Shown: positions 18,635 through 24,687 of the stretch, one piece after another
How the letters are laid out: each line of letters begins with the position of its first letter
How positions within the stretch are numbered: position 1 is the stretch's first letter
Source of the DNA: Nocardiopsis trehalosi NBRC 14201
GTDB taxonomy: Bacteria > Actinomycetota > Actinomycetes > Streptosporangiales > Streptosporangiaceae
DNA: 38,683 nucleotides
NCBI RefSeq assembly: GCF_001552555.1
Contig: NZ_BCRK01000038.1
Span: forward strand, 1-38,683
Direction of reading: 5' to 3'
Translations under genes and position numbers: made by a program
Notes under the pieces: model-generated
Told to the model about the DNA's origin: nothing
Database searches by the model: none
The model's input: the letters and a program-made list of their open reading frames with translations, nothing else

Positions 18635-19219
18635 TCAGTCGCCGGAGGCGGGCAGGAGGGAGCCGAGGGGGCCGAGGTCGAGGTTGAGGTCGGCGGCCGA
18701 CAGGCCGTAGCGCTCGCGCAGCTCGGTCATGCGCTCCTCCAGCAGCATCAGCGTCATGCCGATGCGCTCCTCCTGGTCCTCGCTGAGGTCGCCCTGGTCG
18801 ACGCGGCGCAGGGCCTGGCGCTCCATGAGCTGGCGGACCAGCTCGACCACGGTGAGGATGAGCTTGATCAGGTCCCGCTCGACCGTGTCGGGCTCGGTGG
18901 CGATGCGTCGCCGCAGCGACGCGGCGCCGCCCTCCTCCTCGGACGGCGCGGGGGCGGCGCCCTCCGCCGTACGGTCGAGGGCGCTCTGGAGTTCGCCGAG
19001 GATGTCGCGTTCGACCCGCCCCTCGACCCGGTACGGTCCGTCGCCGGGGTCGTGGACGGTGACGCGGGCCCCGCCCCGGCCCGCCTCCGCACGGGCCGCC
19101 GCCTCCTCCTCACGGCGCGCCGCCTCCTGTGGGCCGTGGACGGTGCCGGTGACAACGGGCGCCGGCCCGCCGGTGCCGCCGCGGTCGTCGGCGGCCCCCC
19201 TCGTCGGCTCGTCGGGCAT
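18635..19219 (-). CDS. gvpK: gas vesicle protein GvpK
   Basis: 194 residues. The GvpK domain is at about 107-184: EPDTVERDLIKLILTVVELV, RQLMERQALRRVDQGDL and EERIGMTLMLLEERMTELRE. GvpK is a conserved accessory or minor protein needed for vesicle assembly. About 100 residues precede the domain and are charged and low-complexity (an Arg/Glu/Ala run near 33-48, then a GRVERDILGELQ segment), so the protein is longer than the usual 90-160. The ATG is chosen for GGAAGGAG about 7 nt upstream; 35 bp separate it from gvpS. It is the last gene of the operon. Confidence 0.92.
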   Translation of the reverse strand: MPDEPTRGAADDRGGTGGPAPVVTGTVHGPQEAARREEEAAARAEAGRGGARVTVHDPGDGPYRVEGRVERDILGELQSALDRTAEGAAPAPSEEEGGAASLRRRIATEPDTVERDLIKLILTVVELVRQLMERQALRRVDQGDLSEDQEERIGMTLMLLEERMTELRERYGLSAADLNLDLGPLGSLLPASGD

Positions 19220-19254: not shown

Positions 19255-19614
19255 TCAGGTGCGGATCCAGCCGGCCAGCGGGTGCCCGTGCTCCCACGGG
19301 GAGGGCACCTTCTCGTTGACCGACGACACCAGGGCGCGCAGCGACACGCGCACCAGGTCGACGTCGGCGATGGAGATGGTCAGGTCGCCGCTGACCACGA
19401 CGCCCTTGGCGAGGACCCGGTCGAGCAGGTCCACCAGGGAGATGTCGCGGTTGGCCAGCGGGTGGTCCTCGTCCAGCATCCGGGCCAGCGAGTGGCTGCC
19501 CTCGGGGAACCCGGTGAAGCCCCCCTCGGGCTCGGGGAACCCCGACCCCTCACCGCCGCGCACCGGCGCGCGGGCCGGTGCCGGGCCCCGGCCGTCCGGG
19601 TCCTGCGGGCTCAC
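19255..19614 (-). CDS. gvpS: GvpA-fold minor gas vesicle protein (GvpS)
   Basis: 119 residues. A Pro/Gly-rich N-terminal segment of about 50 residues precedes the GvpA-like fold (about 55-103): ISLVDLLDRVLAKGVVVSGD then LTISIADVDLVRVSLRALVS. The C-terminus PWEHGHPLAGWIRT matches the end of the GvpJ/S group. By position (between gvpL and gvpK) it corresponds to GvpS of the streptomycete cluster. It is probably a minor shell or nucleation component. The GTG overlaps the gvpL stop (GTGA). Confidence 0.88.
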   Translation of the reverse strand: MSPQDPDGRGPAPARAPVRGGEGSGFPEPEGGFTGFPEGSHSLARMLDEDHPLANRDISLVDLLDRVLAKGVVVSGDLTISIADVDLVRVSLRALVSSVNEKVPSPWEHGHPLAGWIRT

Positions 19615-20414
19615 GCGGGCACCTCCCCGGCGTCGATGGACGCGAACGAGTAGGGCGCCCACGGCCCCGACACCTCGACCCGGGTGCCCTCGGGGGCATC
19701 GGCGCGCAACCGCTCGGCGGCGCGCAGGAAGCTGTCGGCGTGCTCGGCGGGCACCAGGTAGGCGGCGTTGAGCACGTTCTCCCCGGCGGCCCCCGACAGC
19801 GAGGCGTCCTGCGGCCGGTGCTGCTCGCGGGCGTCGGCGAACTCGCACAGGGCCGCGTCGACCCGGTCGCACAGGTCGGCGGCGGTGCGCCAGGTGTCGT
19901 CGCGGCGGTCGCGCTGCTCGCGGCGGCGGCGCAGGTACGCCTTGCCGGGGCTCTCCCCGGGGGCGGCCGGTGCGGCGGGGGCATCGGCGGGCGCCGTGCC
20001 GCGGGTGGAGGGGTCGGCGTAAACCTTGACGCCGAACTCCAGCCGGCCGGTCAGCCGGCGCAGGGCCGCGTCGAAGGTGTCGTGCCCCTCGCGCAGGACC
20101 TCGCGGACGCGGTCGTCGCCGTGGTAGACGGTGGCCAGCCGCAGCGGGGCGACGACGGCGTGCTGGGCGACCGCGTCGATCACCGCGTTGTGCGCGCGGG
20201 CGACGCCCTCCAGCCAGCGCAGGTCCTCCAGGTTGGCCTTCAGGGCCTCCTCGTCGAACTCGTGCAGCGGGACGGTGCTCACCACGGCGGCGAGGTCGGC
20301 CACCACCACCGTGTGCACCGGGTACCCGCCGACCCCCTCCAGCCCGGCCAGGGGCGCGGGGTCGAAGGGGCGCGCCACCGCGTAGACGTAGCCGGCGCGC
20401 GGCTCCTCACTCAT
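19611..20414 (-). CDS. gvpL: gas vesicle protein GvpL (GvpF/L family)
   Basis: 267 residues of the GvpF/L family. The N-terminal domain begins AGYVYAVARPFDPAPLAGLE, with VVADLAAVVSTVPL after it; the C-terminal half has NAAYLVPAEHADSFL and ends SGPWAPYSFASIDAG, the family's usual GPWPPYSF-type end. A Pro/Ala linker of about 20 residues (near 150-170) separates them. GvpF/L proteins bind GvpA and act in early assembly (known from haloarchaea). The ATG overlaps the gvpJ stop (ATGA) and the gene's own stop overlaps gvpS. Confidence 0.92.
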   Translation of the reverse strand: MSEEPRAGYVYAVARPFDPAPLAGLEGVGGYPVHTVVVADLAAVVSTVPLHEFDEEALKANLEDLRWLEGVARAHNAVIDAVAQHAVVAPLRLATVYHGDDRVREVLREGHDTFDAALRRLTGRLEFGVKVYADPSTRGTAPADAPAAPAAPGESPGKAYLRRRREQRDRRDDTWRTAADLCDRVDAALCEFADAREQHRPQDASLSGAAGENVLNAAYLVPAEHADSFLRAAERLRADAPEGTRVEVSGPWAPYSFASIDAGEVPA

Positions 20415-20881
20415 CGGTCCTCCCGTCCGTCGCCGTCGCGGCCGTCGCCGCCGTCCTCGTCGCCGTCCCGGCGGGCCGGGGCGCGCTCGCCGCCGCCCGC
20501 CGCCGCGTCGGCGACCGGGTCGGCGGCGCCGGTGCCCTGCTCCAGCGCGGCGTGCTCCTCCAGGGCGGCGATGCGCTCGCGCAGCTGCCGGTTCTCCTCG
20601 GCCAGCTCCTCGTCGCCGCGGGCCATGGCCGAGGACGACAGGGCGGGGTCGTGCTCCCACCAGTCGATGCCCATCTCCTTGGCCTTGTCGACGGAGGCGA
20701 CGAGCAGCCGCAGCTTGATGGTCAGCAGCTCGATGTCGAGGAGGTTGATCTTGATGTCCCCGGCGATGACGACGCCCTTGTCGAGCACGCGCTCCAGCAC
20801 GTCGGCCAGGTTGGCCGAGGACGATCCGCCCGACGAGCGCACCTGCCGGGGCTCCCCCCGCCATGGTGTCGGTTCGGTCAT
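20411..20881 (-). CDS. gvpJ: GvpA-fold minor gas vesicle protein (GvpJ)
   Basis: 156 residues. The GvpA-like fold is at about 22-70: SANLADVLERVLDKGVVIAG, DIKINLLDIELLTIKLRLLV. KAKEMGIDWWEHDPALS after it is the GvpJ/S hallmark. A Glu/Leu-rich helix (about 88-110) and an acidic Gly/Asp/Arg tail end the protein. Shell incorporation at the tips, or a nucleation role, is assumed from the family. The ATG has GAGGAGGAGG upstream, the strongest ribosome site in the operon, and lies just past the hairpin at 20923-20955, so its translation is probably initiated independently of gvpZ. Confidence 0.9.
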   Translation of the reverse strand: MTEPTPWRGEPRQVRSSGGSSSANLADVLERVLDKGVVIAGDIKINLLDIELLTIKLRLLVASVDKAKEMGIDWWEHDPALSSSAMARGDEELAEENRQLRERIAALEEHAALEQGTGAADPVADAAAGGGERAPARRDGDEDGGDGRDGDGREDR

Positions 20882-20965: not shown

Positions 20966-22219
20966 TCAACGGCGCTGCTCCGCGGGTTCGTCCTCGACGG
21001 GCTCGTCGTCGTACTCCTCGTCCTCGACGTCGTCCTCGTCGGGCTCCTCCTCGACGGCCTCGTCGTCGACGGCCTCGTCCTCCGGCTCGTCGTCCACGAA
21101 CTCGTCGGCGTCCTCGACGTCCTCAAGGTCCTCGTCGTCCTCGTCGGCGGGCGGCTCGTCCCGGTCGACGTCCTCCTCCTCGTCCACCGGCCCGCCCTCG
21201 GCGTCCGCGTCCTCGTCGGCCGCGTCGACCTCGTCGGCCTCGTCGGCCTCGCCGGTCTCGTCGGCGTCGGCGAGTCCGGCCAGTTCGGCGCGCTCGTCGT
21301 CGTCCAGTGCGGCGAGTTCGGCGCGCTCGTCCTCGGCCAACTCCTCCAGCTCGGCCCACTGCTCGTCGGTGAGGCCGGCCTCCTCCAGCGCCAGGGCGTC
21401 GTCGTGGCTCAGGACGACGCCGCCCTCGCGGATCTCGCCGCGCCAGCCGTCCAGCTCGGCCGCGTCGGCCCGGGCCATCATCATGACCTGGCGGCGGTAG
21501 TGCTTGAGGTCGAGGCGGAGGCGGCGGCCCTGGGCGCGCCAGATGTTGCCGGTCCGCTCGAACAGCCCCTTGGGGTAGTACTCCACGACCAGCAGCACGC
21601 GGGTCAGGTTCTCACCCAGCGGGTGGAAGGTGACGACGCCCTTCATGGTGCCCTTGGCGGCCTCGGTGGTCCAGGCGATGCGCTCGTCCTGCACCTGCTC
21701 GGTGACGCTCGCCTTCCAGCTCCGCGTCGACCACCACACCTTGGCCCGCCAGTTCGACCCGGTGTCGTCGGTCTTCTCGACGCTCTGCACGCCCTTGGTG
21801 AAGCTGCCGAAGTCGGGGAAGCGGGTCCACTGGTTGTAGGCGACGCGCACGGGGACGCCGACGTCGATGTCCTCCACGATGTTGATGGCCTTGGGCCCGC
21901 TGCCGCCGCTGCCGCCGGACAGCCGGCCGAAGAGGCCCTTCGCCTTGTGCTTGACGCCGGACAGCCCGGCCGAGGCGACCGCCCCGGCGGGGTTCTTGCC
22001 CTGGGCGATCTTCTTGCCGCTCTCCAGCAGCACACCGCCGTGCCCGCCGCCCGCCATGCGCTCGACCGCGCCGCCGAGCCTCCCGGCGGCGCCGGTGACG
22101 AGGCTGCCGGCCTTGGCGGACAGGTAGCCCCCGACGGCGTCGGCGAGCCGGGACGTGCCCTCGTTGCGGTCGGCCGCCTCGCGCAGCCGCGCGAGGGGGC
22201 CGGCGGAGGAGTCAGCCAC
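20966..22219 (-). CDS. gvpZ: GvpZ: SRPBCC-domain gas vesicle protein with acidic tail
   Basis: 417 residues. Residues 1-110 are low-complexity Ala/Gly/Ser with basic patches. An SRPBCC (polyketide cyclase/START-like) domain follows at about 112-250: INIVEDIDVGVPVRVAYNQW, then RFPDFGSFTKGVQSVEK. Residues 255-315 are helical and Glu-rich. The tail 321-414 holds 59 Asp/Glu in 94 residues and ends EQRR. By position it is the GvpZ of the streptomycete order. Its function is unknown; ligand binding by the SRPBCC pocket is only family inference. The GTG overlaps the gvpY stop by 8 nt. The GAC/GAG-rich tail explains the long Ser-rich frame on the other strand. Confidence 0.87.
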   Translation of the reverse strand: MADSSAGPLARLREAADRNEGTSRLADAVGGYLSAKAGSLVTGAAGRLGGAVERMAGGGHGGVLLESGKKIAQGKNPAGAVASAGLSGVKHKAKGLFGRLSGGSGGSGPKAINIVEDIDVGVPVRVAYNQWTRFPDFGSFTKGVQSVEKTDDTGSNWRAKVWWSTRSWKASVTEQVQDERIAWTTEAAKGTMKGVVTFHPLGENLTRVLLVVEYYPKGLFERTGNIWRAQGRRLRLDLKHYRRQVMMMARADAAELDGWRGEIREGGVVLSHDDALALEEAGLTDEQWAELEELAEDERAELAALDDDERAELAGLADADETGEADEADEVDAADEDADAEGGPVDEEEDVDRDEPPADEDDEDLEDVEDADEFVDDEPEDEAVDDEAVEEEPDEDDVEDEEYDDEPVEDEPAEQRR

Positions 22220-22862
22220 GGTCGCCCTCCCCGTCGGTGGAGCGCGTGCGGCGGCGGGCCGGCTTGGCGGCGGACGACGACGCGGCCCGGCCCTTCTTCG
22301 CGGCGCTCTTCGTCGTGCTCTTGGCGGCGCTCGCGGTGCCGCGCCGCGTCCGCTGGTTGGTGCGGGAGGCCTTAGCCCCGTCGGCGCCGTCGTCGGCGCC
22401 GCGCGCCTCGTCGCGCTCCGCGCCGTCGCGGTCGTCGGCGTCGTGGTCGTCGTCCGCGTCCTCGTCGTCGCCGCCGCGCGTGCCGGCGGCGGTGCCGACC
22501 GCGCCGGTGGCGGCGCCGGCGGCCGAGGAGGCCGCCCCGGTGGCTCCACTGCGCAGGCGCTCGGTGCGGTCGTTGAGGGAGTCGGCGAGGTTGCCCGCCC
22601 ACGTGGTGACGAGCTTGCCCGCGGCGTCCTTGCCCGCGCCGAGCAGCTGCTCGCGGGTCTGGTCCTTCAGCTCGCCGACGACGGGAAGGCTCGACAGCTC
22701 CTTGGTCAGGCCCTTCACCAGCATCTGCGGGCTGATGTCCAGTTTCTTTGCGCCAAGGTAGAGGCCGAGCCCGATGGCGAGCTTCAACTTCTTCCGTCTA
22801 CCGAGGATGTAGCCGCCGATGGCGGCCGCCCCGATCTTCACTGCTGTTCCGGTGTTGCCCAT
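22212..22862 (-). CDS. gvpY: GvpY: gas vesicle-cluster protein with basic tail
   Basis: 216 residues. The N-terminus has two short hydrophobic stretches around RRKKLK (residues 7-20 and 28-38). A helical middle (about 45-105) is followed by an Ala/Gly hinge, an acidic run (131-162, GGDDEDADDDHDADD) and a basic run (164-208) with fifteen Lys/Arg and no acid, which resembles a histone H1 tail (STTKSAAKKGRAA). By position it is GvpY of the streptomycete cluster; function unknown. Vesicle-envelope attachment or cargo binding through the charged tail is inference. It overlaps gvpZ by 8 nt. Confidence 0.83.
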   Translation of the reverse strand: MGNTGTAVKIGAAAIGGYILGRRKKLKLAIGLGLYLGAKKLDISPQMLVKGLTKELSSLPVVGELKDQTREQLLGAGKDAAGKLVTTWAGNLADSLNDRTERLRSGATGAASSAAGAATGAVGTAAGTRGGDDEDADDDHDADDRDGAERDEARGADDGADGAKASRTNQRTRRGTASAAKSTTKSAAKKGRAASSSAAKPARRRTRSTDGEGDRG

Positions 22863-22882: not shown

Positions 22883-23128
22883 TCAGGTCGCGTCGCGGTA
22901 GCGCTCGGCCTCTTCGAGCCGGTCCAGGAGTTCGTCCTCCATGCGGTCGAACTCCTCCTCGGACAGCTCCCCCGCGTCGACCTGCTCGGCGAGGGCGGCG
23001 AGCTGCTGCCGGATGGCCGCGGGGTCGTAGTACTCGCGCTCCGCGGCGTCGAGCACCTGCCGCGCCGTCCAGTCCACGAACCGGATCGGCGCGGCGGGTG
23101 CGAGGAGGATCTCCTTGAGCAGGCCCAT
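22883..23128 (-). CDS. gvpG: gas vesicle protein GvpG
   Basis: 81 residues, the normal GvpG length. MGLLKEILLAPAAPIRFVDW is the family's N-terminus, and the rest is a Glu-rich helix (AERYRDAT at the end) that probably forms a coiled coil. GvpG is an essential assembly factor that works with GvpF in haloarchaea (established there). It starts 18 nt after gvpF and ends 20 nt before gvpY. Confidence 0.93.
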   Translation of the reverse strand: MGLLKEILLAPAAPIRFVDWTARQVLDAAEREYYDPAAIRQQLAALAEQVDAGELSEEEFDRMEDELLDRLEEAERYRDAT

Positions 23129-23146: not shown

Positions 23147-23884
23147 TCAGCCCGTCTGGGCCGCCTCGGTGACGAAGCTGTACGGGGGCAGCGGGCCGTT
23201 GAGCCGGATGTCCATGAGCTCGCCGAGGGCGGCGCGCAGGCCGTTGACCTCCTGGGCGACGTCGTCGAGCCGGTCGCGGTGGACGAGCAGCGAGACGTTG
23301 GCCAGGCAGCCGTCGACCGGCGGGCCGATGACGACCTGCTCGGCGTGGGCGCGCAGGGGCCGGACGACGGCCTCGGAGCCGCGGGCCCGCAGGTCCTCCA
23401 GCGCCTCGGCGACGCGCTCACCGAACGCCATCCGCTCGGCGGGGGTGCCGCCGCCGGACGCGCGGAGCCGCTCGTTCTCGGCGCGCAGGCCCTCGTCCTC
23501 GGTCAGGACGAGGCGCAGGGCGGCCTCCTCGATGTGGGTGGCCTTGACGTTGACCTCGACCCGGTCCTCCAGCGTCGTGAGCAGCCGGTCGTAGTGGTCG
23601 CGGGAGCGTTCCAGCTCCGCGGCCACTTCCTCCTCGCTGTCGGCGACGCTGCCGAAGCGCATCGGCAGCACGGACCCGTGCCGGGCCAGCTCCACCAGGA
23701 CCTCCTGGTGGGCGGCGAGGTCGCGGCGCTTGGCGCGCAGGCCCTCCGGGGCGGTGCTGACCACGGCGGCGAGGCCGGCGGCGCGCACCGAGCGCACCTC
23801 GGCGGGCGGCTCGCCCACCCCGGTCAGCTTGGCCGCGTCGAGGACCTCGTTGTCCCGGACGATCCCGTAGACGTAGGTGCTCAC
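23147..23884 (-). CDS. gvpF: gas vesicle protein GvpF (GvpF/L family)
   Basis: 245 residues. It opens [12 protein letters not shown], the family's usual start, with [17 protein letters not shown] and [20 protein letters not shown] as conserved blocks. [20 protein letters not shown] is a helical linker and the end is [13 protein letters not shown], matching the GPWPPYSF-type motif. GvpF binds GvpA and controls its aggregation at the start of assembly. The GTG overlaps the gvpA stop (GTGA), so GvpF is translated with its client. The frame stays open upstream inside gvpA, but that part is non-coding. Confidence 0.93.
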
Positions 23885-24294
23885 TCGTCGCCCTCCTTCT
23901 TGGCCGTGCGGCGGCGGCGCACGGGCTGCTTCTCCTTGTCCTGCTCGTCGTCGCGGCCCCGCTGGAAGGACTCCGAGATGGCCTCGGCGGCGCCGCTCAG
24001 CGCGCCCTTGGCCTTGCCGTGGGAGCCGCTCTCCATCGTGCCCCCGACCAGGTCGGGCAGGCCCACGCCGCCGCTGCTGGTGAGGTCGAGGCGGTTGCAC
24101 GCCTCGGCGAACCGCAGGTAGGTGTCGACGCTGGCCACGACGATGCGGACGTCGACGGTGAGGAGTTCGATGCCGACGAGGGAGACTCGCGCGAACACGT
24201 CGATGACCAATCCCTTGTCGAGGATGAGGTCGAGGACTTCGTACAGGTTGCCGGACGACTTACCGCCGCCCGAGGACTGCTGCATGACCGTCAT
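23881..24294 (-). CDS. gvpA: major gas vesicle structural protein GvpA
   Basis: 137 residues. The shell fold lies at about 16-72: [53 protein letters not shown], an almost canonical GvpA. This small amphipathic protein forms the ribbed protein wall that holds gas and repels water. A tail of about 65 residues follows, absent from cyanobacterial and halophile GvpA; it contains an acidic/Lys-rich run and the basic [14 protein letters not shown] precedes the ATG at good spacing. gvpO is 75 bp upstream, with an imperfect hairpin in that gap. Confidence 0.95.
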
Positions 24295-24369: not shown

Positions 24370-24687
24370 TCAGCGTCCGTCGCCGCGCCCGCGGGTGTAG
24401 CGGCGCACCCGGTTGTAGCCGGTGAGGTCGCCGTCGGAGTCGATGTCGACGGTGTAGGTGGCGAGGAGGCTGACGGTGTCGGGCACGCGCTGGAGTTCGA
24501 GGGCCTCCATCGTCACGGACCACCCGTCGCCGGTCTTCTCGACGCCGGACACGTGCTCCACGGCGATGCCGGTGACCTCTTCGAACTGCTCGCGCGCCTG
24601 GCGGATGCGCGCCGTCACCGACGGCTTCTTCCTCCGCCGCGCGCCGCCGCCCTCGGCGTCGTCGCGCTCGGTGCTCTCCTCGCTCAT
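24370..24687 (-). CDS. gvpO: gas vesicle protein GvpO
   Basis: 105 residues. The GvpO domain spans about 20-100: PSVTARIRQAREQFEEVTGI, GVEKTGDGWSVTMEALELQR, VSLLATYTVDIDSDGDLTGY and RVRRYTRG at the end. The N-terminus is charged (an Asp/Glu run then RRRKK). GvpO is an accessory protein needed for vesicle formation; it may also affect gvp expression in haloarchaea. It is the first gene of the operon. The ATG has AGGGG about 5 nt upstream. Confidence 0.92.
   Translation of the reverse strand: MSEESTERDDAEGGGARRRKKPSVTARIRQAREQFEEVTGIAVEHVSGVEKTGDGWSVTMEALELQRVPDTVSLLATYTVDIDSDGDLTGYNRVRRYTRGRGDGR

Follow-up and report, generated by a model that had tools for sequence, protein, structure and literature searches.

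Two neighbouring genes of an actinomycete gas-vesicle cluster, gvpY and gvpZ, encode proteins with long charged tails, and the question raised by this locus is whether these tails pair with each other. The genes lie on the minus strand of contig NZ_BCRK01000038.1 of Nocardiopsis trehalosi NBRC 14201, the analysed stretch of which, 38,683 nucleotides in full, is referred to below as the window. According to PMC5839063, gvp genes are induced by salt, and Streptomyces and other soil bacteria have never been observed to contain gas vesicles. Both genes are already named in Streptomyces coelicolor, where SCO6503/6504 and SCO0653/0654 are the same genes as those of the window by name and place; their products are termed conserved hypothetical or hypothetical proteins in the literature. 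Serratia proteins of the same names are listed as proteins of unknown function (PMC4982088). No report on the tails of GvpY and GvpZ or on their pairing was found in a literature search, most subscription journals lying outside its scope.

Gas-vesicle gene cluster

The minus strand of the window carries a complete actinomycete gas-vesicle cluster in the order gvpO-A-F-G-Y-Z-J-L-S-K, assigned with Pfam and NCBIfam. The cluster is represented by gvpO (24370..24687, PF05800); gvpA, encoding the shell protein with a short tail of mixed charge (23881..24294, PF00741 and NF006872); gvpF (23147..23884, PF06386); gvpG (22883..23128, PF05120); gvpY, encoding a protein of 216 amino acids, homologues of which adjoin gvpZ (22212..22862); gvpZ, encoding a protein of 417 amino acids from a GTG start (20966..22219); gvpJ (20411..20881, PF00741); gvpL (19611..20414, PF06386); and, with approximate starts, gvpS (19255..19563, PF00741) and gvpK (18635..19219, PF05121). 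The order O-A-F-G-Y-Z-J-L is common to the window and to Streptomyces loci, for example L167. The overlap of 8 nt noted in the first-pass annotation is real: the gvpY stop and the gvpZ GTG start share positions 22212..22219.

GvpZ was recognised by its SRPBCC domain and by its place between gvpY and gvpJ, and GvpY by the place of its gene immediately before gvpZ and, in the alignment, by a conserved N-terminal core that contains GYxLGRxxK. Among the ten Gvp proteins of the cluster, GvpY (+8) is the only net-basic one, and the charge of GvpZ is −62.

Domain structure of GvpZ and GvpY

GvpZ (all features on the minus strand) begins with a Gly/Ala-rich helical region of low-confidence fold (residues 1–111; 21887..22219), followed at residues about 112–264 by the SRPBCC (Polyketide_cyc/START-like) domain (21428..21886; PF03364, E 1.4e-15), for which the AlphaFold2 model gives pLDDT mostly >90. 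Foldseek matched this domain to 2d4r (E 2e-9), and a sequence match was obtained to 3ggn; these proteins, TTHA0849 and DR_A0006, share with GvpZ the SRPBCC/START-like fold, the match being limited to that domain. The domain is closed by a strongly conserved basic helix, NIWRAQGRRxRLDLKHxRR. Further downstream are a helical acidic linker of three LxDxERAEL repeats of about 11 residues (residues 272–323; 21251..21406) and the acidic tail (residues 321–414; 20978..21259), predicted to be disordered beyond the linker. The tail contains 29 Asp, 30 Glu and 1 Arg, with a net charge of −58; the count of 59 Asp/Glu in 94 residues, given in the first-pass annotation, is exact. The tandem repeats of the linker also occur in L005 and L006, which are the closest relatives.

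The conserved core of GvpY (residues 1–105; 22548..22862, minus strand), delimited by homologue alignment and a structure model, is represented by two short hydrophobic/basic helices with GYxLGRxxK and a third helix after them, the helical model being of modest confidence; the net charge of the core is +7.9 ± 1.7 in 157 homologues. In the structure model, residues 120–206 have pLDDT <50. This part includes an acidic block (net −13 over residues 126–163; mapped as residues 129–162, 22377..22478, minus strand) and most of a Lys/Arg/Ala/Ser/Thr basic end, predicted to be disordered (residues 164–208; 22239..22373, minus strand), which holds 15 Lys/Arg (6 Lys and 9 Arg) and no acid, exactly as first counted. 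Because the acidic block precedes the basic end, the GvpY tail (residues 106–216) has a net charge of about 0, and the whole protein is +8 owing to its basic core. The description of the pair as opposite-charge tails accordingly holds for the acidic GvpZ tail and the basic end of GvpY, but had overlooked the acidic block of GvpY itself. No family of Pfam or NCBIfam matched GvpY, and its low-confidence fold model found no match in the PDB. Homology of GvpY to the N-terminus of GvpZ was considered and rejected, the profile comparison giving a probability of 6.8%.

The resemblance of the GvpY end to histone H1 could mean that it binds DNA or RNA, with the acidic blocks of GvpY and GvpZ regulating this binding or competing with it, so that vesicles would be held at the nucleoid or partitioned into spores. 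The GvpY ends of Streptomyces consist of AKKAPAKKTA-type repeats (AKK[AT] occurs in 40 of 90 tails), and the gvpZ copy SCO0654 (gvpZ2) of S. coelicolor is reported to need WhiA/WhiH for developmental up-regulation in sporulation (PMC3878966), both of which would suit such a tether. However, the GvpY end of other Streptosporangiales is short, Arg-rich and placed after a long acid block, and the Pfam and NCBIfam searches revealed in GvpY no DNA-binding domain, of the kind that carries the Lys/Ala tail in nucleoid proteins of the histone H1/HupS type. The single HU found in the genome of the window is tail-less. A nucleic-acid tether is distinctly unlikely.

Conservation of tail charge

The comparison set consisted of 157 non-redundant adjacent gvpY–gvpZ pairs; each has gvpY immediately before gvpZ, adjacency having been a criterion of selection. 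The pairs were sorted manually into two groups by the origin of the locus and the type of tail, an assignment that is no formal test of clades: group 1, comprising 90 pairs of Streptomyces, Amycolatopsis, Nocardiopsis/Streptomonospora-like bacteria, including the window, and a few other Streptosporangiales; and group 2, comprising 67 pairs of other Streptosporangiales. The named loci, 80 in number, were those with the greatest similarity to the window. All 90 group-1 pairs allow a GvpZ start that overlaps the GvpY stop, and 58 of them allow an overlap of exactly 8 nt.

The GvpZ tails of group 1 are almost purely acidic: among the 82 gvp-linked pairs, the net charge of the GvpZ tail is −54.7 ± 13.9 (s.d.); a strong acidic stretch is present in 81 GvpZ proteins, and a basic stretch of the GvpY size in none. 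A GvpY tail in which a stretch of 30 residues reaches a net charge of at least +5 was found in all 90 pairs of the group, including all 82 gvp-linked ones. It is composed of an acidic block and then a Lys/Arg/Ala/Thr/Ser end, and the mean net charge of the whole tail in the gvp-linked pairs is −0.8. In group 2, the tails of both proteins are as a rule acidic and then Arg-rich. Since both tails are two-signed in these 67 pairs, the clean plus/minus split is clade-specific, and a simple pair of positive and negative tails does not apply family-wide: GvpY carries both signs, and most other Streptosporangiales have acidic-then-basic tails on both proteins. In 302 of the 310 tails of both groups, the acidic part is closer to the core than the basic part.

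Comparison of tails across species, proposed in the first-pass annotation and made here on the 157 pairs, showed that charge is kept and sequence drifts; where GvpZ cores are 80–97% identical (mean 88%), the tails are merely 52% (GvpZ) and 46% (GvpY) identical. An acidic stretch in GvpZ (net −15 or more in 30 residues) is present in 147 of 157 proteins encoded beside gvpY versus 4 of 34 without gvpY or gvp neighbours, and a GvpZ paralogue in the genome of the window, L002, is without an acidic tail. When the GvpZ relatives as a whole are placed on a tree, joint changes of gvpY adjacency and acidic tail fall on just two deep branches, so their association rests on few independent events. The GvpZ tail is in the right reading frame, because third codon positions vary most. 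Judged from the sequences, by this frame and by the way the acidic stretch tracks gvpY adjacency, the acidic tail of GvpZ is no chance product.

These data bear on the view that the tails, rich in GAN and AAG codons, lengthen by slippage in a genome of high G+C content and are simply tolerated or serve as a nitrogen store. The tails are indeed repetitive and variable in length, with frameshifts inside them (L165, L185), and storage of nitrogen has been suggested as a role of ArgR-controlled Gvp proteins in Streptomyces (PMC5839063). Drift or storage would, however, hardly keep the sign, order and strength of charge across large sequence divergence, and an acidic tail is missing from most GvpZ-like proteins that lack gvpY or gvp neighbours. 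This view is distinctly unlikely.

Reciprocal charge compensation between the two tails was rejected by independent contrasts on a concatenated-core tree, in which compensatory co-variation of GvpY and GvpZ tail net charges is absent (r = −0.10); the acidic blocks of the two proteins show a weak correlation of the same sign (r = 0.26, independent contrasts). At least one genome shows the state named in the first-pass annotation as counting against pairing, one tail kept and the other lost: in Streptomyces sioyaensis (L138), GvpY retains its basic end but no longer has its acidic block, and GvpZ has lost its tail.

Regarding the other tails of the cluster, the GvpA tail, described earlier as basic, is short and mixed (+3 in the last 17 residues), and the GvpJ tail is acidic, as described, but mixed. 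A PVRRR-type motif shared by all Gvp tails was considered and rejected: [PQ][AV]RRR occurs in 38 of 67 group-2 GvpZ proteins (2 expected) and is not enriched in GvpA, hence there is no common code of Gvp tails. GvpA of other Streptosporangiales ends with acidic residues and RRR in 44 of 52 cases (about 16 expected; for example, L043, L050 and L067), so tails of mixed charge may be exposed on the shell itself.

Electrostatic model of tail attraction

Attraction between tails was simulated with one bead per residue, excluded volume and Debye–Hückel interactions, with no stickiness, and was read from the mean force acting on two tails kept a set distance apart. Hydrophobic, aromatic and folded elements are absent from the model; the GvpZ linker, although partly helical, enters it as a coil; and a basic tail of any kind would be attracted to any long acidic one. 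Analytical second-virial theory was dropped because its expansion fails at such charges.

For the GvpZ and GvpY tails of the window, the model gave an attractive well of about 3 kT at 150 mM salt (integrated by hand), and the attraction was gone at 500 mM. Scrambling the GvpY tail at constant composition abolished its attraction to GvpZ, the GvpZ tails repelled each other, and GvpY tails did not attract each other over most distances. In a random sample of group 1, the mean force at 6 nm was negative in 44 of 44 pairs, 35 of them beyond 2 standard errors; the other nine short-run pairs, including that of the window, lay within 2 standard errors. With scrambled GvpY, the force was negative in 23 of the 44 pairs, and the native tail was more attractive than the scramble in 42. 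In the model, the order of charges in GvpY is thus needed for attraction to GvpZ. The GvpA and GvpJ tails of the window, mentioned in the first-pass annotation for their charge, showed no attraction to the GvpY or GvpZ tails in the model and were rejected as charge partners.

Negative mean force was obtained in 12 of 30 group-2 pairs, with a mean of 0, and one pair of this group, L099, showed weak attraction. The attraction supposed in the first-pass annotation is therefore reproduced, as salt-sensitive and dependent on block order, in the group-1 model, but is small in other Streptosporangiales. The features of a fuzzy complex, namely heterotypic attraction, sensitivity to salt, dependence on order and lack of self-attraction, emerged from the minimal electrostatic model for the pair of the window and for group 1, but not for most other Streptosporangiales. 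A 1:1 pair of tails would be far from neutral, with 0 for GvpY and −74 for GvpZ.

A part of these results could be explained by an entropic bristle or charge shield, in which the acidic tail of GvpZ, along with the mixed ones of GvpY, GvpA and GvpO, would keep hydrophobic Gvp proteins soluble and shells apart with no specific contact of GvpY with GvpZ. Repulsion between GvpZ tails in the model, conservation of charge rather than sequence, the weak same-sign co-variation of the acidic blocks, the acid and RRR ends of GvpA and the weakly attracting tails of other Streptosporangiales, with both charges on both proteins, all agree with a shield. It leaves unexplained, however, the basic end of GvpY in 90/90 group-1 pairs and the acid-then-base order of nearly all tails, and is rather unlikely.

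Distribution and gene linkage

Among 249 genomes of the order, GvpZ relatives were found in 196, GvpY in 121 and GvpA-family genes in 162. GvpA-family genes are present in 117 of 121 GvpY-positive versus 45 of 128 GvpY-negative genomes (odds ratio 54, Fisher p 1e-27, uncorrected for relatedness). In many genomes, the pair is located away from the gvp cluster, and some gvp clusters have no gvpYZ (L205–L212); gvpYZ is therefore accessory and not a core component. Of 23 genomes checked, which mostly have gvp-unlinked pairs, 21 carry GvpA elsewhere. Pairs with no gvp gene in the surrounding DNA are present in L046, L057, L069, L071, L077, L079, L083, L084, L086 and L088, as well as in L091, L092, L096, L101, L157, L161–L163, L166, L188 and L197; the genomes of these pairs have GvpA elsewhere, with the exception of G207 (locus L084).

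In the GvpY-positive genomes without GvpA represented by L203, L204, L020 and L011, the GvpZ tails are weak, short or frameshifted; the tail of L011, from a genome with no GvpA match, reads as Arg-rich, probably through a frameshift. A link between loss of the GvpZ tail and loss of gas vesicles is only suggested by these four genomes and was not adopted, since S. tagetis (L173) has no GvpA match and an intact GvpZ tail. Tandem GvpZ-like genes without gvpY, away from gvp genes, were found in one genus (L103–L112, L116 and L117), the first copy stopping just past the SRPBCC core. In L165 (5305–7035) and L185 (4834–7071), gvpY and gvpZ form a single ORF; these joins look like indels of GvpY-tail repeats entering the gvpZ frame and were not used as evidence of interaction.

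In a broader variant of the pairing, gvpYZ would be a portable two-protein module forming a heterotypic condensate: a complex coacervate of the tails would organise actinomycete gas vesicles, other Streptosporangiales would have shifted both proteins to two-signed tails, and the module, which many genomes encode off-cluster, would persist in a few that have no GvpA. Such a module is unlikely.

Possible role of the GvpY–GvpZ pair

The reading preferred here, tentatively and at a probability somewhat short of even, is a salt-sensitive, heterotypic complex of GvpY and GvpZ that organises or coats gas vesicles, with real binding, vesicle anchoring and an effect on vesicles presumed. GvpY and GvpZ would be paired accessory proteins of actinomycete gas vesicles, each with a folded or helical core (basic, with hydrophobic helices, in GvpY; START-like SRPBCC in GvpZ) and a long disordered charged tail. 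The two proteins, made from overlapping genes, would meet by the basic end of GvpY and the polyanionic tail of GvpZ in a fuzzy, multivalent, salt-sensitive contact, weak per pair, with GvpZ tails repelling each other. The cores may anchor the pair to the shell of the vesicle or to Gvp complexes under assembly, where the two proteins would make up a charged corona by which vesicles are spaced, clustered or nucleated.

Prothymosin-alpha and histone H1, acidic and basic disordered chains, form a fuzzy electrostatic complex, and the tails of GvpY and GvpZ would work in a similar way; the eukaryotic pair is unrelated, and the GvpY tail differs from H1 by its own acidic block and net neutrality. According to PMC11445434, gas vesicles of Priestia are clustered by GvpU and, less so, by GvpT; GvpU of Priestia megaterium is described there as a non-essential accessory Gvp, a phase transition of which clusters vesicles (Li 2024, cited in PMC11445434). 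Clustering of this kind makes a clustering role plausible for GvpY and GvpZ. GvpU is one protein, in contrast to the charge-paired two-protein GvpY–GvpZ; Pfam and NCBIfam, libraries that may hold no GvpU model, gave no match of GvpY or GvpZ to a clustering factor.

Soil actinomycetes are rich in gas-vesicle genes, yet no vesicles or flotation have been reported in Streptomyces, and gvpY and gvpZ are unstudied accessory genes of these clusters. A conserved, salt-tunable charge pair is concrete and cheap to probe at the bench, and may be usable to control the clustering of gas-vesicle ultrasound reporters. If the pairing is true, GvpY and GvpZ would be a two-component counterpart to the single-protein clustering by GvpU in Priestia.
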